A stretch of 33,769 bases of DNA from Gemmatimonadota bacterium. GTDB lineage: Bacteria > 4572-55 > J002. Location: the NCBI GenBank assembly GCA_003697105.1, contig RFFQ01000193.1, forward strand, positions 1 through 33,769, read 5' to 3'. Of this stretch, positions 4,645 to 27,923 are shown piece after piece. The notes under the pieces were generated by a model. That model had not been told where the DNA came from. It made no database searches and saw only the letters and a program-made list of their open reading frames with translations. Each line of letters opens with the position of its first letter. Positions within the stretch are counted from its first letter, which is position 1. The position numbers and the translations under genes were made by a program.

Positions 4645-4697
4645 ATGCCAGCCTGTCCTTTGAGGATTGGCAGTTCTTCGCCATACCAAATTCCGGC

Positions 4698-4730
4698 AAA
4701 CCCGATCTTGTTACAGAGATCGGGTTTTTT
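4698..4730 (+). terminator. Rho-independent terminator of sdhCAB
   Basis: A perfect 11-bp stem, AAACCCGATCT (4698-4708) with AGATCGGGTTT (4717-4727), has an 8-base loop and runs into six T residues (4725-4730). It ends the sdh transcript before the DUF2809-like gene. Confidence 0.92.
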
Positions 4731-4764
4731 GTTGGCGATCATTTTAAACCGGGGAGGATTTATC

Positions 4765-5165
4765 GTGCCGCGTCACCGGTTGTTATACGGTCTATTGTTG
4801 TTGCTCGTTATGGGGTTGGGGTTATCATCCCGGCAACCCTTTATGCCCCAGCTAGTGCGGCTTTACGCAGGTGATACACTTTGGTCGCTGATGGTTTTTC
4901 TGCTGGTCGGGCTTTTTTTCCAAAGCTTCCCACCCGGTTGGTTGCACTATACGCCGGTATGTTCTCTTTGTTGATCGAATTAAGCCAGTTTTATCATGCC
5001 CCGTGGATTGATGCGATTCGTGCCACCCGAATCGGCGGCTTAGTTCTGGGTTTCGGTTTTTTGTGGCGCGACCTCGTGTGTTACGCGCTTGGTATTATGG
5101 GGGGTGTTGTTATCGATGTGGCACTTCGGTCTGTCCACCAGCCTCATGAGAATCAGGACGGGTGA
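4765..5165 (+). pseudogene. DUF2809-like membrane protein, broken or frameshifted at a T7 run
   Basis: Two overlapping frames together make one DUF2809-type protein. The first begins at GTG 4765 after GGGGAGG (VPRHRLLYGLLLLLV...LVGLFF). The second continues FPKLPTRLVALYAG, then LLIELSQFYHAPWIDAIRAT and GGLVLGFGFLWRDLVCY, which are the conserved core of the family. Joining them needs a -1 shift at 4914-4920, where codons TTT TTC sit in T-TTT-TTC. The repaired product is about 133 residues with four hydrophobic helices, normal for the family, whose function is unknown. It could be a real one-base deletion or insertion, a sequencing error in the homopolymer, or programmed slippage. I call it broken by default. 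Confidence 0.75.
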
Positions 5166-5330: not shown

Positions 5331-5367
5331 AAATAACCGTAAGCTTATGATAAACTTACGGTTATTT
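5331..5367 (-). terminator. Terminator after tRNA-Leu
   Basis: A perfect 13-bp inverted repeat, AAATAACCGTAAG (5331-5343) and CTTACGGTTATTT (5355-5367), lies directly downstream of the tRNA. On the minus strand it is followed by TTTTATTTTG. It probably ends the transcript that carries coaD and the tRNA. Confidence 0.8.
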
Positions 5368-5373
5368 ATTTTA

Positions 5374-5459
5374 TGGTGCCCCTGAGAGGACTCGAACCTC
5401 CACGCCCTTTCGGGCACAGATCCTTAGTCTGCCGTGTATACCAATTCCACCACAGGGGC
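5374..5459 (-). tRNA. tRNA-Leu, anticodon AAG, CCA encoded
   Basis: The minus strand folds as a class II tRNA. The acceptor GCCCCTG pairs with CAGGGGC, with discriminator A and encoded CCA. The D-arm segment is GGTGGAATTGGTATACAC. The anticodon stem GCAGA/TCTGT encloses loop CTAAGGA, the long variable arm is GCCCGAAAGGGC, and the T-loop is TTCGAGT. The loop places AAG at positions 34-36, reading CUU. It otherwise resembles the GAG isoacceptor, so A34 is unusual and would be expected to be inosine if TadA acts on it. The gene lies 41 bases after coaD. Confidence 0.93.
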
Positions 5460-5500
5460 ATCTTTAGCGGCGGTATAATTAGCGGATAATCGCCCAAAAG

Positions 5501-5989
5501 TCAAGATTTTTTTTCGGCAAATTTCGTTTGTAATTGAGCCAGCACATACGAGGGTACCAGTGTGGAAATATCGCCTCCCAGACTGGAGACTTCTCGAACC
5601 ATGCTGGAACTTAAATAGGTATATTCTTGAGAAGGCATCATAAACACGGTTTCCAGATTCGGTGCTAAGTTGCGGTTCATCAGTGCCATCTGAAACTCAA
5701 ATTCATAATCTGATACGGCTCGAATGCCCCGAATAACCGCATCGACGCCTTGTTTTTTGGCAAAATCGACCAATAAGCCTTCAAAATGATCTAGCCTCAC
5801 GTTGGGTAAGGGGGGTAAAACCACTTCCAACATGGCTAATCGCTCTTCCACGGTGAAAAGGGGTTGTTTCCGCCGGTTGATCGCAACGGCTACAATCAGT
5901 TGATCAAATAATTTGGCACTTCGCTGAATTAGGTCAATATGTCCATTGGTAACCGGATCAAATGTTCCGGGATAGAGTGCGGTGCGCAT
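5501..5989 (-). CDS. coaD: Phosphopantetheine adenylyltransferase
   Basis: CoaD joins AMP from ATP to 4'-phosphopantetheine to give dephospho-CoA, the penultimate step of coenzyme A synthesis in the cytosol. From the chosen ATG the protein is 162 residues, the usual size. YPGTFDPVTNGHID (6-19) holds the nucleotidyltransferase GH motif, RGIRAVSD lies at 87-94, and the ATP-binding SSSMVRE at 127-133. A longer open frame exists upstream, but it overlaps the M20 peptidase gene, and AAGGA precedes this ATG. The gene starts ten bases after the peptidase stop and is probably co-transcribed with it. Confidence 0.96.
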   Translation of the reverse strand: MRTALYPGTFDPVTNGHIDLIQRSAKLFDQLIVAVAINRRKQPLFTVEERLAMLEVVLPPLPNVRLDHFEGLLVDFAKKQGVDAVIRGIRAVSDYEFEFQMALMNRNLAPNLETVFMMPSQEYTYLSSSMVREVSSLGGDISTLVPSYVLAQLQTKFAEKKS

Positions 5990-5999
5990 CGTGTGTTCC

Positions 6000-7373
6000 T
6001 TACTGGGCGAGTTCATCAAGTAAAATAGCCGATGTTCGGATACCTCGGTAAAAATCACGGATGGAGAATTTTTCATTGGGCGAGTGGACGTTATCATCCG
6101 GTAAACCCCAGCCTAATAACAGGCTGTCACAGCCTAAAATCTTTTTGAATGTGGACACAATTGGGATAGACCCCCCTTCCCGGATCAGCACCGGCTCAAT
6201 ACCAAACCCTTTTTTGATCGCCCGGCGAGCCGCCTTCATGCCGTCACTGGAGCTATCCACCAGAACAGCTTCGGCGGAATGACCCCCCACTTCAAACTCC
6301 AAATAGACCGTATCCGGGCAATTCTCGCGGACGAATGTTTCGATCAGGTGCTCTATTCGGTGCGGGTCTTGGTTTGGGACGAGGCGCATTGTAATTTTGG
6401 CGAATGCTGTCGAGGGGACTATCGTTTTACCCCCTTCACCTTGATAGCCGCCGCCAATACCGTTTACTTCCAGCGTGGGACGAGCCGTTTTCCGTTCCCA
6501 CGTGGTATAGCCGGCTTCCCCATATACTTTCTTGACCCCAGTGTACCGGATAAACTCTTGCTCATCAAAGGGAAGATTGGCGAACATTTCTCGTTCCCAT
6601 GCTTCGAGGTCAAGTACGTTATCGTAAAATCCCGGAATCGCCACCCGACCTTTTTCATCATGCATTTTTGCGATGAGGGCACACAATTCATGCACCGGAT
6701 TGGGCACGGCTCCCCCAAAACTACCGGAGTGTAAATCCCGTTTTGGACCGGTCAGGCGGATTTCACACCCGACAATCCCTTTCAAACCATAGGTGATTGC
6801 CGGTACATTCTCTGCCAGTTGAGCCGTATCCGAAATAATGACATAATCTGCCGCCAGTTCATCTTTATGAGCTTCGATGAAGGGGATCAGATTCGGGCTC
6901 CCAATTTCCTCTTCGCCTTCTAAAATGACTTTGACATTGATGGGGAATTCACCGGCTGTTTTCAGATAGGCTTCTAGCGCCAAGATGTGAGTCAACATTT
7001 GCCCTTTATCATCTGTTGCTCCGCGAGCGTACAGATTTCCGTCGCGTTCGGTCGGTTCAAAGGGTGGTGTTTCCCACAACTCAAACGGCTCTGGTGGCTG
7101 AACGTCGTAGTGCCCATAAATCAGCACGGTTGGTTGTCCCGGTTTCTCGCATTTTTGCCCCATGACTATTGGATGCTTGGCGGTGTCATATAAGGTGGCT
7201 TCAAAGCCAGCATTCGTCAAACGATTTTTGACCCACTCGCCCGCCGCCCGTACATCTGGAGCATGTTCTGATTTCGTGCTGACACTCGGAATTCGCAACA
7301 GTTCTTTCAGAGCTTCCAGATAGTCGGTCTGGTGTTGATCAATATACTCTAAGACGTTGTTAATATTTGACAT
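6000..7373 (-). CDS. M20 family metallo-dipeptidase
   Basis: This is a cytosolic zinc dipeptidase or carboxypeptidase-like hydrolase of 457 residues. The metal site is visible: IYGHYDVQP gives H88 and D90, ARGATDDKGQ the bridging aspartate near 121, EGEEEIGSPN the catalytic and metal glutamates at 154-156, and NVHSPNEKF the final histidine. The dimerisation lobe lies between the two catalytic halves. Closest family style is the CNDP/PepV-like dipeptidase group; exact substrate is not readable. AGGAGG lies just before the ATG. It follows purB after 64 bases and precedes coaD by ten. Confidence 0.92.
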   Translation of the reverse strand: MSNINNVLEYIDQHQTDYLEALKELLRIPSVSTKSEHAPDVRAAGEWVKNRLTNAGFEATLYDTAKHPIVMGQKCEKPGQPTVLIYGHYDVQPPEPFELWETPPFEPTERDGNLYARGATDDKGQMLTHILALEAYLKTAGEFPINVKVILEGEEEIGSPNLIPFIEAHKDELAADYVIISDTAQLAENVPAITYGLKGIVGCEIRLTGPKRDLHSGSFGGAVPNPVHELCALIAKMHDEKGRVAIPGFYDNVLDLEAWEREMFANLPFDEQEFIRYTGVKKVYGEAGYTTWERKTARPTLEVNGIGGGYQGEGGKTIVPSTAFAKITMRLVPNQDPHRIEHLIETFVRENCPDTVYLEFEVGGHSAEAVLVDSSSDGMKAARRAIKKGFGIEPVLIREGGSIPIVSTFKKILGCDSLLLGWGLPDDNVHSPNEKFSIRDFYRGIRTSAILLDELAQ

Positions 7374-15765: not shown

Positions 15766-18084
15766 TTATTTGATTAACATTGCCGTTTGGGTGAATTGTG
15801 TCGTAGGGGTTTTCAATTGGTAGAGATAGAGACCACTTTCAACCGGTTGGTGTTGATTATCCGTTCCGTCCCATTCTAGTTGGTACTGTCCGGGGAGGGG
15901 GTGGTCTCGGTTCCATTGCCGGACGATTTTACCGGCGACATCGTAAATGGTCAGTTGAATAGGCTCGTTTTGCGCAATTTCGTACCGGATCGTTGTCCGG
16001 GGATTGAATGGGTTGGGATAATTTTGAAACAACCGGGTCGCTGTGGGGACATCGGTAACAGGCTCGGATCCACCGGTGGTGGCGGCATATTCCACATGCA
16101 CTGCCTCGAACCGGCTCCATTCACTCCACTGATCGTCGTCATCGAGTGCCCGCACGGTGTACACATAAAGCCCTTCCGGTTGATCGACAATCTCAAACAC
16201 CGGTTCAAGAATTGCTTCATCTAAGATGATTTCGCTCCCAAACTGGGTCGTCGGATAAATATCATCGATATAAAATCCTTCGCCCAACACGCCGCCGTCG
16301 GTCACATAATGAAAACGAATCAGAATTAATTGCCCCTGATATGCACTTAGATCAAATTCAGCTAAGACCCAACTATTATTGGAACTTCCGGTGATTCCGT
16401 GCCCGCGATTTTGCCCGTAGGGATTACTTTCGGTAGTGATGTTTCCGGGAATGGGTTCCCACGTCTCCCCGCCATCGGTAGAAAGCTCGACATAAGCATA
16501 ATCCCAATTCATTTCAATGTCATACCACGTATAAAATTGGAATACGCTATTTTGTTCGGTCACAACCACGGGGTTTAATGCCGTGCAGGTGCTACTCATG
16601 TTGTGGTTGTGTCCTCCAAAATAAGCACGTTCCCCGCTGTAATGCCGGTTAGTACGCATCGTAAATCCATTTGCTACGGTGTAATAATCGTTGGTTTCAC
16701 ATTCATCCGTAAATTGATTATAATCGGATTGTTCTTTCAGCGCATACTGGACAATCGGGTTATGTTCATCGATTTCAGGTGTCCAACTGACTTGATAAGT
16801 GCCGTCATTATCATAACTGAGAGGGTTAATTGTGGGGGCGTAAGGGGGCGCCAGATGGTAGGGCATATTACCGGCAATTTGGGCATAGTACAAATTGGGT
16901 TCTAGGTTTTCCTCAACAAGGGATGGAATCCGGCTTTCCGGGGGCCAAAACCCATCGGAAAAGGTCCCAACTTCCGGGGTGAGACTAAAATAGCGATATG
17001 TTTCGGTGGTTTCGCCGTATGCCCAATCATCGGTGTCACCATTAGTGACGTAAATAACACCATCCGCGACATTACCGGGGGTGTAGCCATTGAAGGCAGT
17101 GGCGGTTTGTGCCAGTTCCATAAATACAGCATCATGGTGTGTGTCGCGGGCTTCGTAACCCCACGGGAACAACCACAGATTGCCATAACTGTGGTACGAA
17201 AGTCCAACCACAAAATGGTGTGCGGCAACAAAATCCCGAATTGCTTGAGATTCCGGTTCGGAAAAAGCATGTGTGCCACGATAGGTCTCACTACTGCTGT
17301 TGGGACTGGAGCCGATGTTGTCATAGCCCCACATATAACCAAAATTACGGTTTAAGTCCACCCCGAATGTCCCATCCCCGTTATCACGACGGTTTTTGCG
17401 CCACCAAGCGTTCTCATTTTCCACGTGAATGTGTCCGTCTGGATTGTAGGTGGGGATAATCCAGAGTTGCCGGTTATCAATGATTTCGGTGACGGCATCA
17501 TCCACACCGTAATTATCGACCAAATAGTTGAGAAAATAGAGCAACACTTCTGGCGTGATGACCTCGCGGGAGTGCATGTTGGCGGTATAGAGTACTTCCG
17601 GCTCATCTGGTTCGTTTGTTTCCACATTATCGGAGACTTTTATTGCCCAAATGTCGCGCCCTTCATAGCTTTGTCCGATAGATTCAAGATGGGTAATTTC
17701 CGGGTATGTCTCGTGAATCTGGTTCAATTCATCGATCATTTCCTGCACGGTGTGGTAAGCCCCCATATCTCGCAAATGCCCAACTCGCTGATCGTATTCA
17801 GCTTGTAAATCTGCAGAGATTACCACCGGTTGATAGCCCATCTCCGCCAACTGATTGGCATCTGCCCGGCGCGCGACAATGTCAATAAACCGGTTTCCGT
17901 TTTCATCTTGCAATACCGGATACCGGCAGGATGCAAAATCAAAGGGATAACTTAAAATATCACGAATTTGACTTTCTGTTTCCACCGGAACTCGTAACAA
18001 TTGGTGTACCTCACGGGCAAACGTGGTGAACACCATCAACAGCACTATCAAACTGGTGAAAATAAAGCGGCATAAACCGTTCAT
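15766..18084 (-). CDS. Secreted M14 zinc carboxypeptidase with C-terminal sorting domain
   Basis: A signal peptide (about 1-23) precedes a short propeptide-like part and an M14 catalytic domain (about 110-420). Zinc ligands are H171 and E174 in ANMHSREVITPE and the later YHSYGN histidine. IIPTYNPDGH and WWRKNRR give substrate-binding residues, and TPEVG holds the catalytic glutamate. Residues of about 440-680 look like beta-sandwich modules (STDGGETWEPI, as in immune-inhibitor-type jelly rolls). The last 80 residues carry QNYPNPFNPRTTIRY and IYDVAGKIV, the sorting module also seen in the secreted hydrolase. It starts ten bases after the YbjN-like gene. Confidence 0.93.
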   Translation of the reverse strand: MNGLCRFIFTSLIVLLMVFTTFAREVHQLLRVPVETESQIRDILSYPFDFASCRYPVLQDENGNRFIDIVARRADANQLAEMGYQPVVISADLQAEYDQRVGHLRDMGAYHTVQEMIDELNQIHETYPEITHLESIGQSYEGRDIWAIKVSDNVETNEPDEPEVLYTANMHSREVITPEVLLYFLNYLVDNYGVDDAVTEIIDNRQLWIIPTYNPDGHIHVENENAWWRKNRRDNGDGTFGVDLNRNFGYMWGYDNIGSSPNSSSETYRGTHAFSEPESQAIRDFVAAHHFVVGLSYHSYGNLWLFPWGYEARDTHHDAVFMELAQTATAFNGYTPGNVADGVIYVTNGDTDDWAYGETTETYRYFSLTPEVGTFSDGFWPPESRIPSLVEENLEPNLYYAQIAGNMPYHLAPPYAPTINPLSYDNDGTYQVSWTPEIDEHNPIVQYALKEQSDYNQFTDECETNDYYTVANGFTMRTNRHYSGERAYFGGHNHNMSSTCTALNPVVVTEQNSVFQFYTWYDIEMNWDYAYVELSTDGGETWEPIPGNITTESNPYGQNRGHGITGSSNNSWVLAEFDLSAYQGQLILIRFHYVTDGGVLGEGFYIDDIYPTTQFGSEIILDEAILEPVFEIVDQPEGLYVYTVRALDDDDQWSEWSRFEAVHVEYAATTGGSEPVTDVPTATRLFQNYPNPFNPRTTIRYEIAQNEPIQLTIYDVAGKIVRQWNRDHPLPGQYQLEWDGTDNQHQPVESGLYLYQLKTPTTQFTQTAMLIK

Positions 18085-18094
18085 GGCGGAGTCC

Positions 18095-18481
18095 TTATTT
18101 TTTGCGGTAATCCGCTAATAGATTATAACTGAGGGATGCGGCTAGATTCAACGAATCAATTGACGCTTTGAGTTCATTCACGTCCAAATTTTCCAGTTGC
18201 AAGGTATCCACCACGATAATGGCATCTTCATCAATTGCGAACGCGCCGTGATCCATTTCTGTGGCGTTGGCAATGAGTAATTTTTTATACAACTCTTCGG
18301 ACGGATTCAATTTGGAAAGGGGTACCAAGCTGATCTGCAAGATCAACAGGGGTGGGGCATAGGCGACCACCATCGGGGGATCGTTTTCATCCAGACGACC
18401 GACCCAAACATCGTCACCACGCTTCTCAAACTCGAAACCGATTTCGGTAAAGTATGCGGTAATATCGGTATGTGTTTTCAT
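18095..18481 (-). CDS. YbjN-like / type III chaperone-fold small protein
   Basis: This soluble 128-residue protein has an alternating alpha/beta pattern (ITAYFTEIGFEFEKRGDDVWVGRL, then strands around PPMVVAYAPPLLILQIS). The C-terminal helices fit YbjN, a T3SS-chaperone-like fold. ANATEMDHGAFAIDEDAIIV is typical of that superfamily. Its role is unknown. AAGGAGG lies nine bases before the ATG. It is tightly followed by the secreted carboxypeptidase, which may be co-expressed. Confidence 0.65.
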   Translation of the reverse strand: MKTHTDITAYFTEIGFEFEKRGDDVWVGRLDENDPPMVVAYAPPLLILQISLVPLSKLNPSEELYKKLLIANATEMDHGAFAIDEDAIIVVDTLQLENLDVNELKASIDSLNLAASLSYNLLADYRKK

Positions 18482-22031: not shown

Positions 22032-22061
22032 TTGACTTTTCACTGGGTTTTTCCCTATACT
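22032..22061 (+). promoter_or_regulatory. Promoter of the GTPase island
   Basis: TTGACT (22032-22037) and TATACT (22056-22061) are 18 bases apart. The predicted start near 22068 lies downstream of the earliest possible start codon (22032), so the GTPase must begin at an internal ATG. Confidence 0.75.
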
Positions 22062-22109
22062 CTAATCATCTGGCCTCTCGCCCAACCTATACGAATTGAT
22101 AATTTGGTT

Positions 22110-23096
22110 ATGATTTGCCCATTTTGTCTTGATGCTGTTACATTTGCTCGTGATAAATCCCGACGAGGGTACGCAATGGCATATCGTTGCCCCAGTTGTG
22201 GGGAGCGGGCGCCGGCGCTTTATGTGCGGGAATACAAAGCGTTTCCGCCGGTAGTACTCAACGCCGTCGGTTTCCGGCAGCATGGCAAAACGGTCTATTT
22301 TGCGGCACTTTTCTACGCCTTGAAAAAACTCCGTCTGGCGAGTCATTGGGACGATTTTTTCACGATGAGCCTGGATGAGGACAGTCTCAACACCGTTTAT
22401 GAAAATATGCGGTTGCTCGAAGCGGGTCGCTTGCCGAATGCGACCCCGCGCAATTTCCCGCGACCCACGATGTTACGGGTGTATGGTGTACCCTTTCAAC
22501 CGAGTTATACCTTGCTTTGCTATGATACCGGTGGCGAATGCTTTGAAAAACCGAACCAATTGGTACAATTTGCTGGCTTTGTCCGGCGGGCAAAAGCGGT
22601 ACTCTTTTTGATGAGTTTAGGGGATATGAAGGATGCCAATGCCGAAGCATATCGCTTGCTCAACACCTACCTCATCGGAATGGGTGAACTGGGTGGTAAT
22701 ACCCACAACCAACATCTGATCGTGGTCTGCACGAAAGCAGATCAGCTTGTGGATAAATTACCGGAGGACGTCGTTGATTATCTGATTCATGGGACGGTAA
22801 AAGGATTGATCCAGCATGATAATTACATGACGACCCTGTACCAGATGTCAACGAGATTGCGCACGTATATCCAAAATACGGTGGGAGCGTATGAATTTTT
22901 GAATGCCGCTGATGCACATTTTAAATCTGTCAATTTCTCCGTGATTTCTGCTTTGGGTGCCGCCCCAGAAGGTTCGCGGCTACCCGTCGAGATCGTCCCG
23001 CGTCGGGTTTTTGACCCCCTTTTTTGGGCGATGGAAAAATCACGGATGACATGGAAAGACCGTCTTTACGGTCTGTTTCGAGGAAGGAAAACGTGA
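22110..23096 (+). CDS. Zinc-ribbon double-GTPase-type (DO-GTPase, TRAFAC) protein
   Basis: The protein has 328 residues. An N-terminal zinc ribbon has CPFC at 3-6 and CPSC at 27-30. A P-loop GTPase follows: GFRQHGKT (54-61) is the Walker A, CYDTGG (137-142) the DxGG Walker B, VVCTKAD (205-211) the guanine-specificity TKxD, and ISALG (279-283) the G5. The DTGGE-style Walker B and SALG G5 match the DO-GTPase families described from NTP-dependent conflict systems. The upstream promoter and lack of sequence support for a longer start favour ATG 22110, although no strong Shine-Dalgarno site precedes it. It is first of five coupled genes. Its trigger and effector partner are unknown. Confidence 0.85.
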   Translation: MICPFCLDAVTFARDKSRRGYAMAYRCPSCGERAPALYVREYKAFPPVVLNAVGFRQHGKTVYFAALFYALKKLRLASHWDDFFTMSLDEDSLNTVYENMRLLEAGRLPNATPRNFPRPTMLRVYGVPFQPSYTLLCYDTGGECFEKPNQLVQFAGFVRRAKAVLFLMSLGDMKDANAEAYRLLNTYLIGMGELGGNTHNQHLIVVCTKADQLVDKLPEDVVDYLIHGTVKGLIQHDNYMTTLYQMSTRLRTYIQNTVGAYEFLNAADAHFKSVNFSVISALGAAPEGSRLPVEIVPRRVFDPLFWAMEKSRMTWKDRLYGLFRGRKT

Positions 23097-23719
23097 TGAT
23101 CCTCCGTTGTGATAAAACTGGTTTTCCACTCGTCTCGTTGCGGAGCGGAATTGATATGCAACTGTTACCGGTGACGAAAGCTCAGTTTGACGCCTTTTTA
23201 GTAGAATCGCCTGATTTCCCACCCGAAGCCTATGCACAAATGATGGCGCTCAATCCTCCTCTCGAACTAGGTCAGCTTACCGCTGAAAATCGGGAACAGA
23301 TATTTTTAACCGGAATTCTGCCAGAAGAGGCGCTCCAATTTGCCCAATGGCTCGGTGAGGGTTACGATTTTCCTACTGTCGAAGAATGGCGGGGAATGTA
23401 CGATGACCTGTTGCTAGAGGTGGGATCATTCGATTACCTTCAACAGTTACCCGAACAGTGTGAATCGGCAATGGCACGAGACATTCTTCGGCGGCTAATC
23501 AATCAGATTCAACCCTATTCGCTAATGGACATCTCGTTGTTGAGACAAGGTGTGGTAGAATGGGTGCACACTTCGAAGCATCCGGGCGATTTTGCCGGAT
23601 TGGGTACACCGCGCCCTCAATTCCAACCCAATTTATACGATCCCCTTAATGATGTCGTACGCCCGCTTTCGCGCGAAAATCGCATTAAATATTTTGGTTT
23701 TCGTCTTATCCACCGTTGA
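23096..23719 (+). CDS. FGE/SUMF1-like protein lacking the catalytic cysteines
   Basis: This 207-residue protein keeps the outline of the formylglycine-generating-enzyme (C-type lectin-like) fold. MQLLPVTKAQFDAFL (21-35), LPEEALQFAQWL (75-86), YDFPTVEEWRGMY (90-102, cf. RLPTEAEWE), GVVEWV (152-157, cf. GNVWEW) and a terminal FGFRLI (200-205). It has only two cysteines, C5 and C122, neither in the family's catalytic position, so sulfatase activation is unlikely. A binding role is more plausible, as with FGE-like domains in conflict systems. The start overlaps the GTPase stop as TGATG, with AGGAAGG just before. Confidence 0.78.
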   Translation: MILRCDKTGFPLVSLRSGIDMQLLPVTKAQFDAFLVESPDFPPEAYAQMMALNPPLELGQLTAENREQIFLTGILPEEALQFAQWLGEGYDFPTVEEWRGMYDDLLLEVGSFDYLQQLPEQCESAMARDILRRLINQIQPYSLMDISLLRQGVVEWVHTSKHPGDFAGLGTPRPQFQPNLYDPLNDVVRPLSRENRIKYFGFRLIHR

Positions 23720-23737
23720 TTATCTGAGGAGACCGGC

Positions 23738-25072
23738 ATGGCTCTGGAAGGCATCCTCGCCCAATTGCAACACCCGGCTTGGCATATTCGCCAGCAAGCA
23801 TTGCAAACGGTTTGCGGGGACCCCCAACCAGACTGGATTCCCCGCCTCCTGCCGCATCTCAACCACCCAGACTGGAAAATCCGCGATTGTTTGCATACCG
23901 CTTTGACCCAGCTGTGCCGCCAGCTTGAGCCGCCGGATCACGCGGTGATTGTCGGGCAGTTATTGCCCTATTTGAGTGACCCACATCTGACCGTCCAACG
24001 GGCGGTCTGTGAAGCCCTTGCTTATCTGCCTGACCCCCGTACCATTGCCCCCATCCGCCGCTACCTGACCCATCCCGACCCGTATCTGCGGCGAACCGCT
24101 TGTGACGTTCTCGGCCAGTGGGGTGACCCCCTATTCATTCCAGATTTTGCCGCTTGCCTATCTGATGAAGACGAAGCGGTACGCTATTTGGCAGTGCTTC
24201 AATTGGTACAATTTGACCTGCCGGATGCCTTACAGGCGCTTCTTCGCGCTGTGGATGACCCTTTCCCGCGTACGCGAGAGATGGTTGCCGCATATCTAGG
24301 CAACGTGGGCGGCGATGCTGCCATACACGCGTTGATCCACATGGTAGAAGATATAGACCGGCTCGTGCGCCGTCAGGCTGTGGCGGCACTCGGTCAGGTG
24401 GCTGATTTGCGGGCAACAAACCCGCTTTTAGAACGATTGAATGATAATGATCTCGCCGTCCAGCGCGCCGCCGCCGAAGCTTTGATCCAACTGGGGAGTG
24501 TATCTGTACTGGAACAGATGCTACGGCGCTATCATTATGATGAGATCGAACGGGTGATTCAAGGTCTCCGGCACATGAGCAACCGCCTGAAGCCGCATTA
24601 TCCGAATTTAATTTGCCTTGATTGTCTGACTCGCTTCCGCTGGCGGGGACTCTACAGTGGATTCCATTATTACGGGCGTTTTTTGTGTTGCCGTACGTGT
24701 GGGCGATTGAATACGGCGCGCACTCAAATAACGGAAGTCGTCGCCGTGTTTGACCTTTCTCGCTCAGACCCACGCTGGCAGGATGACGATCGGTTGTACA
24801 TCAATGTCCAGATCGATCCCCAGTTGTACGATTTTGATCGCGTCGAGATTCTCAACACCACCGACGAGGCCGTTGAGGCATTTTGTATCCGGGTAAAGAA
24901 TGACGAGGACGAATTTAGACGACCTAACTATCGCAAAATTCCGGTTTTCGTGCATTGCCCCTTAACCGAAAATACAATGATATGCCGCTTACAATCTTCC
25001 GCTGGTATAACCGGCGATACGATTCGCATCCTGAAACATACCTTCGGTACCGTGGAAGTGATCGAACCATGA
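23738..25072 (+). CDS. HEAT-repeat protein with C-terminal zinc ribbon and a conserved unnamed domain (copy 1)
   Basis: Residues 1-280 are about eight HEAT/PBS-lyase-type helical repeats with typical units such as DPHLTVQRAVCEALAYL and DRLVRRQAVAALGQV, a protein-protein interaction solenoid. Residues 290-325 form a zinc ribbon, C293-x2-C296 and C318-x2-C321. The last 120 residues hold LYDFDRVEI, VEAFCIRVKNDEDEFRR, YRKIPVFVHC and a closing HTFGTVEVIE. This tail is repeated in the next gene and I cannot name it. The start follows GAGGAG; the stop overlaps the next ATG. Confidence 0.85.
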   Translation: MALEGILAQLQHPAWHIRQQALQTVCGDPQPDWIPRLLPHLNHPDWKIRDCLHTALTQLCRQLEPPDHAVIVGQLLPYLSDPHLTVQRAVCEALAYLPDPRTIAPIRRYLTHPDPYLRRTACDVLGQWGDPLFIPDFAACLSDEDEAVRYLAVLQLVQFDLPDALQALLRAVDDPFPRTREMVAAYLGNVGGDAAIHALIHMVEDIDRLVRRQAVAALGQVADLRATNPLLERLNDNDLAVQRAAAEALIQLGSVSVLEQMLRRYHYDEIERVIQGLRHMSNRLKPHYPNLICLDCLTRFRWRGLYSGFHYYGRFLCCRTCGRLNTARTQITEVVAVFDLSRSDPRWQDDDRLYINVQIDPQLYDFDRVEILNTTDEAVEAFCIRVKNDEDEFRRPNYRKIPVFVHCPLTENTMICRLQSSAGITGDTIRILKHTFGTVEVIEP

Positions 25073-26295
25073 GCTTGTTTTGGACCTTGTTACGCCTCAA
25101 GAGTCTCTTCCAGCGAACCCGGGCAAAGGCGTGCCGCCAACTAGCACAATTAAAGATTTCACCGGAAAAAATCCGCAAAAAGGTTATCCCCAAACTGGCG
25201 GATATTCTGGTTTATGAGGGTCGAAACGAGGTCATACGTGCCGCAGAGGATACCTTGAAACATTTTAAACAGGCAGGCTATGAACAAGAGGTTTTGGAAG
25301 AACTCCTGAACAACCTCAATCCATATTCCCCAGCACTCAATGAAGAACGGTTGGAACGGATTGAACACGTCGCGGAAACCCCAATCCAAGACTTGCTGGT
25401 ACGCTTTGTGGAACATGGTTCTTCCCCGAAATTACGCAGTAAAGTTGGATTGGTGGCGGCATGGCGCTCACAAAACTTTGCGATCCTCAAACCCATTTTG
25501 ACTGAATTGGCGGATTGGAACCCCTATTGGGATGCGTTCCAGCACTTGCTATGGAATGCCCTAAACGACGACGATACCCGGGAACCGGTGATTGACTTCT
25601 TGATCGAGGTCGTACAAAAAGAATCCTCTTACCGGTTGCGCTCTTTGGGGTACTATCTGTTGGGTCAATCCAGAGCTCGCCGGGTGATCCCCGTCCTGCT
25701 AGACCGCTTGAAAACAGAGCGCGATGACGCCACCATGTATGCGCTGGTCAAGGCATTTGAGGCGTTAGGAGACCCGCGGGTTATTCGCCCGCTCATCGAT
25801 TTTGGAAAGCGTGAGTATCTGATGGTGAGCCATGTCAATAAAGTGGCTCATAATCTGAGCCGGAAAATCCATCCGCACCGCAAAACGTTGCTTTGCCGGA
25901 ACTGTCTCACCCGCTACACGGAAGATTTTTCTGCCCTTGGTGGTTTACCGGTATTGCTTTGCCGGAATTGTGGGGATTCGATGGCGTTGCTCATCGGGGT
26001 GGAAACGGTTGTCGCGGTGTTGGATGTGGATGCTACGCTGGAAATCCCCCCGGACGACGTGCCGGCGGTATTACGTATCAATTATGTGAAGGAAGACCGG
26101 CTATTTGACTTTGATTGCATCCAAATTATCAACGCACCCGATATGGTGGTAGAGCGATTTTGCATCCGAGCCGGTAATGATGAGGATCGCTTCCGGCGCA
26201 AACGCTACAAAAAAATTCCATGTGAGGTGCGATGTCACCTCCTGCCGGGCACCATCAACATGCTAGAACGTATGTTTGGAGAGGTAACAACATGA
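25069..26295 (+). CDS. HEAT-like protein with the same zinc-ribbon C-terminal domain (copy 2)
   Basis: This 408-residue paralogue of the preceding gene has diverged helical repeats (1-265), for example SYRLRSLGYYLLGQSRARRV and ATMYALVKAFEALGDPRV. The zinc ribbon has C276-x2-C279 and C298-x2-C301. The tail LFDFDCIQI, VERFCIRAGNDEDRFRR, YKKIPCEVRC and RMFGEV matches copy 1 position by position. The N-terminus is basic (KSLFQRTRAKACRQ). The longest frame extends 38 codons further upstream, but the ATG at 25069 overlaps the previous stop as ATGA and has GGAAG before it. Function is unknown. Confidence 0.85.
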   Translation: MSLFWTLLRLKSLFQRTRAKACRQLAQLKISPEKIRKKVIPKLADILVYEGRNEVIRAAEDTLKHFKQAGYEQEVLEELLNNLNPYSPALNEERLERIEHVAETPIQDLLVRFVEHGSSPKLRSKVGLVAAWRSQNFAILKPILTELADWNPYWDAFQHLLWNALNDDDTREPVIDFLIEVVQKESSYRLRSLGYYLLGQSRARRVIPVLLDRLKTERDDATMYALVKAFEALGDPRVIRPLIDFGKREYLMVSHVNKVAHNLSRKIHPHRKTLLCRNCLTRYTEDFSALGGLPVLLCRNCGDSMALLIGVETVVAVLDVDATLEIPPDDVPAVLRINYVKEDRLFDFDCIQIINAPDMVVERFCIRAGNDEDRFRRKRYKKIPCEVRCHLLPGTINMLERMFGEVTT

Positions 26296-27923
26296 TCCTA
26301 AATGCCGCTCAATTGATTTATGCCAACGTCGAAGCGGAACAATCGCCGCAAAAACAAGGGGGATTTCAGACCCTATTTTATACCCACAGCCAGATCGACC
26401 CCGCCGAACGGGAAGAGATTGAGACGCGAATGCTTTACGTTCCATCGGAGGTGGAACCGGTGAAGTCCATCTTTTTCTGTACGGCGAGTGGAAAGGTGGT
26501 GATCGCCCGGATCGTCTCCCTGCCCGATCCCGATAGTGCCGGACGAAGTGGACGGTATTTAGGGCATTGTCTGGTTCTCCGGGCGGAGGATGCCACCCAA
26601 ATTGGGATAAATCCGTTTGATCTCTTCCGGTCTGCCCGGTTCTTCCACACTGTTGAAGCGGCATTGAACGCTGGCAATTTTGAAACCGGTAACATCCCGC
26701 CGCTTCCCCTGACGGTCAATCTAACAGAAAGTGACTTCACTCTGGCAAAACAGTGGTCACCGGCGGAACTCAAACGGCTCGTGTTGCTCTTTACCAGTGT
26801 GGAGCGGCAACTCGCCGACCGGCGCACCGTTGCCTTTATTGGAGACCCCGAAGCCGTTCTGCAAACGATTGAAGCCGGTTGGTTTGTCCTACCGGCGCAA
26901 TTACGCCGAAAATGCACGTTTGATACGTATTTTTACCGCTGTAATATTGTGGCAACGCCTTATTGGGGGATTGGGCTGTTGCACGCCACCGATAACCCGC
27001 GTTACAGCCTAGTGGATGTGGCGGCAAAGCAAGTGCGCCATTCTGTCATAGACCTGCCCCAAACTGCCTACGAATGTTGGGTGCTGTCATTGCTAGATCA
27101 ACAGCGGTGGTCTCGCATCGACCGGCACAAAGAGCAGGCATTTCGCCTCGGCAATTTCATCGATCAAGAGGAAGTCGCGCCGGAAATGTTAGACCACCTC
27201 CCAGATGAAATCATCCATGAAGTATTTCAGTTTAATGCGGATCGGGTGCGGCAGCGATTGTTGGCAAAAATACAGGAGAACTTTCCGGCGGAATTGGCTG
27301 GGCGGGTTGTCGAACCGATCCATCAGCAAAAGGATGCGACGCAATTATTGCACTTTTTGCGCAAGGGATTTGAGATTTCCTTTTTACTCGATATGCTGGA
27401 CCGGGTCTATTATGCCCAAAAGGACTCAGCGCCGGAAAAAGCGGAGAAAAACGCCCTAGCACGCCTCTTAAAAACGGAATCGCATGTTCGGTTGAATGCG
27501 CTTTTATTCGCTTGGAATGGCAAGGCGAATGCGTTGGCGAAGGTGCTCAGTGAGATGCCCACCAAGACCTATCAAGCTGTTGTTACTCGGGCAGTCGCCC
27601 ATCAGTGGGTTGAACGGGCGTCGCTGTTGTACGTGCGCGGGCGAGGTGAATATTTGTTACGAGCCTATCTGGCAGTCCTACCGGCAGAATACCCGGATGT
27701 CGTTGATGTCGTCAAAACATTGGTTCGGGCGAAGGACACCGCGTGCTTGACTCTATTGATCCCGCATCTGGAGCAGTTCGACCGCAAGACACAGGAAACG
27801 CTCACCAAATGGGAAGATGACCTCCCGCCGGATGTGCGGCAAGCACTGGCGGCAATCCTGCCCCCGAAAAAAACGGGTGTGTTGGCGAAGCTCCGCAACA
27901 TCCTCTCTGGATACCGCCCCTAA
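26292..27923 (+). CDS. GTPase-associated protein with GAP1-N2-like N-terminal domain
   Basis: The protein is 543 residues. The first 110 match the style of GAP1-N2: AQLIYANVEA, GGFQTLFYT, and the hallmark GRSGRYLGHCLVL (cf. GRxGxYxxHxLV). A middle region follows (KRLVLLFTSVERQLADRRTVAFIGD, then LRRKCTFDTYFYRCN), and a helical C-terminus of about 300 residues with several leucine-rich helices. GAP1 proteins are partners of DO-GTPases in proposed conflict systems and may sense a trigger or relay to an effector. The ATG at 26292 overlaps the previous stop as ATGA and follows GGAGAGG. A 20-codon upstream extension is not needed. Confidence 0.82.
   Translation: MILNAAQLIYANVEAEQSPQKQGGFQTLFYTHSQIDPAEREEIETRMLYVPSEVEPVKSIFFCTASGKVVIARIVSLPDPDSAGRSGRYLGHCLVLRAEDATQIGINPFDLFRSARFFHTVEAALNAGNFETGNIPPLPLTVNLTESDFTLAKQWSPAELKRLVLLFTSVERQLADRRTVAFIGDPEAVLQTIEAGWFVLPAQLRRKCTFDTYFYRCNIVATPYWGIGLLHATDNPRYSLVDVAAKQVRHSVIDLPQTAYECWVLSLLDQQRWSRIDRHKEQAFRLGNFIDQEEVAPEMLDHLPDEIIHEVFQFNADRVRQRLLAKIQENFPAELAGRVVEPIHQQKDATQLLHFLRKGFEISFLLDMLDRVYYAQKDSAPEKAEKNALARLLKTESHVRLNALLFAWNGKANALAKVLSEMPTKTYQAVVTRAVAHQWVERASLLYVRGRGEYLLRAYLAVLPAEYPDVVDVVKTLVRAKDTACLTLLIPHLEQFDRKTQETLTKWEDDLPPDVRQALAAILPPKKTGVLAKLRNILSGYRP

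Follow-up and report, generated by a model that had tools for sequence, protein, structure and literature searches.

The window analysed here, a stretch of 33,769 nucleotides from the genome of a Gemmatimonadota bacterium (assembly GCA_003697105.1, contig RFFQ01000193.1), carries an intact gene for a tRNA-Leu with the anticodon AAG. Judging from sequence comparison, we consider it quite probable that this chromosomal gene has taken the place of tRNA-Leu(GAG) in decoding CUU and CUC and that TadA edits A34 of its product to inosine. The tRNA-Leu(AAG) would take over the reading of both codons from tRNA-Leu(GAG). After transcription, the organism's own TadA would deaminate A34, as in tRNA-Arg(ACG), because the surface that the loop CUAAGGA presents to the enzyme is almost identical to that of the Arg loop (CUACGGA). 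As tRNA-Leu(IAG), the product would then read CUU and CUC and could also read CUA. We infer that the tRNA is expressed, leucylated, edited and used in decoding. All in all, the gene is real and ordinary in appearance; it belongs to a known, if uncommon, kind, is situated in an isolated lineage and has a product that is probably edited to IAG.

The gene, its surroundings and the tRNA set of the genome

ARAGORN finds a single tRNA gene in the window, for leucine and with the anticodon AAG (c5374-5459), and Rfam RF00005 matches positions 5459-5377 with 53 bits (gathering score 29, E 7.7e-9). Read directly from the sequence, the acceptor stem consists of 7/7 Watson-Crick pairs, the discriminator base is A73 and CCA is encoded; the variable arm is long and ends in a GAAA loop, and the anticodon arm is GCAGA-CUAAGGA-UCUGU. 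Cloverleaf, long variable arm, A73, CCA and the leucine call together identify the gene as a class II tRNA-Leu. The A at position 34, from which the sequence-only reading had started, is real, with ARAGORN, Rfam and direct sequence reading agreeing on an intact gene. The RNA is predicted to fold more stably than shuffled versions (z -2.4), its minimum-energy fold not being the cloverleaf.

Table 1. Features at the tRNA-Leu(AAG) locus (window coordinates)
Feature	Position	Strand	Evidence
tRNA-Leu(AAG), CCA encoded; anticodon 5425-5423, A34 = 5425	5374..5459	-	ARAGORN; Rfam RF00005; sequence
Promoter-like TTGACT-18-AATTAT, 5' of the tRNA	5475..5504	-	weak: 1 found, 0.9 expected by chance
Intrinsic terminator hairpin, 17 pairs and T tail, directly 3' of the tRNA	5331..5367	-	
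coaD (pantetheine-phosphate adenylyltransferase), upstream neighbour, same direction as the tRNA	5501..6097	-	NCBIfam TIGR01510, 210 bits

The neighbouring coaD is the sole full-length coaD match in the genome, and two terminator-like sites were found versus 0.6 expected (Table 1). In tetranucleotide use the window is at a distance of 0.065 from its own genome, a value within the spread of 20 other stretches taken from it (0.057-0.090), and at 0.269 from the sister genome; the contig is therefore not an obvious contaminant. On the other side of the tRNA gene, the frame of a DUF2809 protein (4645-5165, plus strand) is split in two overlapping parts, 4645-4974 holding the start and 4881-5165 the end; the split sits near a T run and reflects either a genuine frameshift or a fault of the assembly. 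Farther away, DO-GTPase2, HEAT-repeat and GAP1-N2/GAP1-M proteins are encoded consecutively (22032-27923, plus strand), which we take to be components of GTPase-centred conflict systems, and an M14 carboxypeptidase with weak C-terminal matches to a type IX secretion-like tail (15766-18084, minus strand) adjoins a small CesT_Tir_1 domain protein (18095-18481, minus strand).

The genome, assembled into 199 contigs (4.18 Mb, 96.85% complete), yielded 44 tRNA matches when 150 of 206 first-look candidates were scored. According to ARAGORN, its leucine set comprises TAA, TAG, CAA, CAG and AAG, and its arginine set ACG, TCG, CCG, TCT and CCT. The absence of a GAG tRNA, anticipated by the sequence-only reading, was borne out genome-wide: no intact Leu(GAG) gene is among the 44 tRNAs and the exact GAG pattern has 0 matches, patterns of the same shape having recovered 5/5 known Leu genes of this genome. 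This search may have overlooked a GAG gene, since the assembly is 96.85% complete and fragmented, lacks a 16S match and had 150 of its 206 tRNA candidates scored. The 16S search gave no match in this genome or its sister, with the control found in only 9/14 genomes; nor do the 44 tRNAs include Ile(GAU) and Ala(UGC), which are usually present.

The phylum is represented in the collection searched by two genomes of the same class. The sister genome (93% complete) has 43 tRNAs and the leucine anticodons TAA, TAG, CAA, CAG and GAG. Since it possesses GAG and no AAG, AAG most likely replaced GAG on the branch leading to the genome studied here; with two genomes, this direction follows from Leu(GAG) being the usual state in bacteria.

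Distribution and derivation of tRNA-Leu(AAG)

As relatives, 386 bacterial genomes from 260 families were surveyed, nearly all of which share only the domain with the window's genome. The Leu(AAG) pattern matched 28 of them; ARAGORN called 23 of these matches tRNA-Leu(AAG) and had no tRNA call at the place of the other 5. The 23 genomes are spread over 17 families, and 21 are at least 95% complete. They represent a lower bound, because patterns of this shape evidently miss genes, the one for UAG having matched no more than 274/386 genomes. The GAG pattern occurs in 253/386 genomes overall, in 0/23 with Leu(AAG) versus 253/363 others (Fisher p 5.9e-12, families not being independent draws); with one AAG genome per family the count is 0/17, for which the frequency of GAG in the remaining genomes gives a probability of about 1.5e-9. 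Both states exist within family f13, with AAG in G160 and GAG in G012 and G299. A narrow-pattern scan of genome contigs, from which records close to the window's genome were possibly omitted, produced a single record, which is a Defluviitaleaceae MAG carrying Leu(AAG).

That such tRNAs are known only sporadically in bacteria, as had been stated from the sequence alone, is an overstatement in view of 23/386 genomes and 17/260 families and of the editing already proven in Oenococcus and Streptococcus. One publication places almost all bacterial Leu(AAG) genes in Bacilli and also mentions Mycoplasma and Prochlorococcus (PMC13249217); the 17 families found here may overlap with these groups. Among mostly openly accessible papers, none was found on the present lineage or on the anticodon-arm pattern described below. 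Leu(IAG) as a kind has thus been shown before, in Oenococcus and Streptococcus, and the present work adds its spread over 17 families, the lack of co-occurrence with GAG in all 23 genomes and, in most families, the combination of a TadA-compatible loop with a body that is not UAG-like.

The loop CUAAGGA is present in 10/17 AAG families, the window's among them, UUAAGGA in 2/17 and UUAAGGG in 5/17. Counted by family, A38 occurs in 12/17 AAG, 0/24 GAG, 3/18 CAG and 35/41 UAG tRNAs. The window's Leu(AAG) has both C32 and A38, neither of which is found in the 24 GAG families sampled, and it is therefore unlikely to be an ordinary GAG gene misread at a single base. The remainder of the molecule was assigned by a leave-family-out classifier using positions outside the anticodon arm, which called 18 of the 23 AAG bodies GAG, 2 CAG, 2 CAA and 1 UAG. 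Because it recognises UAG bodies in 49/52 cases and GAG bodies only in 15/25, with 10/24 CAG bodies called GAG, the assignment of AAG bodies as not UAG is firm and that as GAG is not.

The body of the window's gene has its best score as GAG, with CAG 1.5 nats and UAG 8.4 nats behind, whereas for the arm GAG is the worst class, 19.2 nats behind, and the resemblance is to UAG, UAA and CAA arms. The sequence-only reading had attributed the body of the GAG isoacceptor to this gene, which may hold for the part outside the arm and does not extend to the arm itself. Direct descent from Leu(GAG) by G34A would need a GAG-like body combined with a GAG-like arm, a combination that the gene does not have. 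Descent from the UAG tRNA by U34A was rejected for the body, with 1/23 AAG bodies called UAG, though the arm is UAG-like. Either arm and body differ in origin, or the arm was reshaped once A34 was in place, and in the latter case the fit to TadA would provide an explanation. Inheritance from another leucine tRNA explains some cases: the Leu(AAG) of family f112 has a CAG-like body that is identical to its own CAG tRNA at 50/52 body positions. With rather less than even confidence, we suggest that the switch from GAG to an inosine-bearing AAG is recurrent across bacteria, the arm being rebuilt towards the Arg(ACG) loop of TadA (A38, mostly C32) within a body that is not UAG-like. A38 would then be the entry ticket for editing, and the five UUAAGGG families would be unedited or have a relaxed TadA.

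Editing by TadA, codon use and comparison with known systems

Inspection of tadA, to which the sequence-only reading had pointed, revealed the gene at G000:C170:8854-9309 (NF008113, 178.5 bits, cut-off 150), where it adjoins tRNA-Ser genes; in the sister genome TadA reaches 125 bits for the stretch searched, below the cut-off of 150. A TadA match is present in 23/23 Leu(AAG) genomes (E 5e-27 or better) and in 27/30 GAG genomes (E below 1e-20). Presence of the enzyme alone is no proof of editing, because the Leu(AAG) of S. pyogenes, which is fully edited in that species and is a substrate of the S. pyogenes TadA in vitro, is left unedited by the TadA of E. coli (PMC11472039). When the AAG anticodon is set in a tRNA-Arg-like loop, E. 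coli TadA edits it partly, and changes at 32, 37 or 38 block this activity (PMC11066159). The window's Leu loop, with A34 encoded, fits YUAMGRA, the mRNA editing motif of S. pyogenes (PMC11472039), and differs from the organism's own Arg(ACG) loop at position 35 only. Without modification, A34 is a poor reader of C-ending codons in most boxes and reads mostly U-ending ones outside GC-rich boxes (PMC11066159), and it would serve the present genome badly because CUC is commoner than CUU (1548 versus 1143 among 10,582 Leu codons in 399 kb). Given the presence of TadA, the fit to the motif, the near-identity to the Arg loop and the use of CUC, editing of Leu(AAG) to IAG is likely and constitutes the best-supported reading.

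No column of a TadA alignment separates the 17 AAG from the 23 GAG families after correction (best p 0.16, permutation of the maximum); the weak or partial GAG sequences G020, G026 and G073 had been dropped and G005, G018 and G030 had no TadA good enough to align. The residue Gly before Ser-Leu, which is Q in the window's genome and D in S. pyogenes, was rejected as an AAG determinant on the same grounds. The three GAG genomes without a good TadA match (G005, G018 and G030, 3/30) suggest a loss of tRNA inosine. Several genomes have tRNA-Arg(ACG) near tadA, inside the flanking sequence retrieved with it (L141-L143, L146, L162, L170, L171 and others).

The near-universal bacterial I34 system is that of tRNA-Arg(ICG) and TadA, and for a long time tRNA-Arg was believed to be the only carrier of inosine in bacteria. 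For the Leu(AAG) studied here the same enzyme is proposed and the loops are alike except at position 35, but the amino acid is another one and the tRNA belongs to class II. A closer parallel is provided by tRNA-Leu(IAG) of Streptococcaceae and Lactobacillaceae (PMC13249217; PMC11472039), where an A34 Leu tRNA replaces GAG, as it most likely does here, and where a YUAMGRA loop, TadA and a UAG tRNA for CUA are likewise found; AAG and GAG never occur together in one family there. The Leu and Arg loops of S. pyogenes differ at 35 and 37, whereas position 37 is the same in both loops of the present genome. Oenococcus oeni and Leuconostocaceae also have A34 Leu instead of GAG, and editing of the O. 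oeni tRNA to I34 has been shown (cited in PMC8072771, PMC8007984, PMC8266599). O. oeni has A34 Thr and Ser tRNAs in addition, of which none is among the 44 tRNAs of the window's genome. Reading of CUA by IAG, put forward in the sequence-only reading, is possible in principle and is not needed here because a UAG tRNA is present.

Families with Leu(IAG) are described as shifting from UUA to CUU, CUC and UUG (PMC13249217). Based on small samples and simple ORF calling (399 kb of 4.18 Mb for the window's genome), CUU+CUC amounts to 0.254 and UUA to 0.186 in the AAG genome, versus 0.275 and 0.107 in its GAG sister. In f13, the corresponding values are 0.400 and 0.329 for the AAG genome, 0.457 and 0.288 for the GAG genome of equal GC3, and 0.568 and 0.163 for the second GAG genome, whose GC3 is higher (0.517). 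A recoding of the Lactobacillales type, with CUU/CUC raised and UUA lowered compared with GAG relatives, is thus not seen in either contrast. In this respect, and in belonging to a phylum known from two species in the survey, the present case is unlike that of Streptococcaceae and Lactobacillaceae. Should Leu(GAG) have given way to Leu(IAG) on many occasions in bacteria, these lineages would be replicate natural experiments on a deaminase gaining a second substrate and natural tests of whether inosine alters codon choice.

Alternative explanations

Instead of being edited, A34 might stay unmodified and read CUU and, less well, CUC, with Leu(UAG) covering both codons by extended wobble. Decoding of this kind has precedents, B. 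subtilis being viable without TadA and unmodified tRNA-Arg(ACG) reading all CGN codons (PMC10454642), and the A34 Thr and Ser tRNAs of O. oeni remain unedited (PMC8072771). A genome that possesses TadA, presents it with a fitting loop and uses more CUC than CUU speaks against it, as does the preference of unmodified A34 for U-ending codons outside GC-rich boxes (PMC11066159), and we regard this explanation as rather improbable. A still smaller probability, and a very low one, is left for a GAG gene in the unassembled part of the genome with AAG as an extra isoacceptor or a decaying copy. The missing 16S match, the lack of Ile(GAU) and Ala(UGC) and the scoring of 150/206 candidates would fit it, but no GAG match accompanies Leu(AAG) in any of the 23 genomes, most of them nearly complete, and the AAG gene is without visible defect. 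Least credible is a miscalled base in the anticodon or a contig that is a contaminant, for which a single assembly and the split DUF2809 frame about 0.3 kb away could be cited: bases 32 and 38 depart from all GAG families sampled, the body is not UAG-like, exactly this loop recurs in most AAG families, and the tetranucleotides of the window match its own genome.

Horizontal transfer, for example from a phage, followed by displacement of GAG, concerns the origin of the gene and is compatible with editing by TadA; we give it a small chance. A Leu(AAG) gene was called in 16/18 IMG/VR stretches matching the CUAAGGA pattern, and the viral sequence L366 agrees at all positions but one from the D loop to the anticodon arm and is 83% identical over 71 nt. 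However, a cellular tRNA in G018 is similarly close (86% identity over 72 nt), this longer stretch has only one viral match, and no integrase is among the 20 window proteins searched. Some viral Leu(AAG) genes belong to tRNA arrays, the contigs in question measuring 231 to 424 kb (IMG/VR), and additional A34 tRNAs occur in viral arrays as well. The array of L368, a viral contig of 394 kb, combines Leu(AAG) with Thr(AGT) and Arg(ACG), that of L366 (37 kb) contains Leu(AAG), Ser(ACT), stop-reading tRNAs and tmRNA, and that of L367 includes His(ATG).
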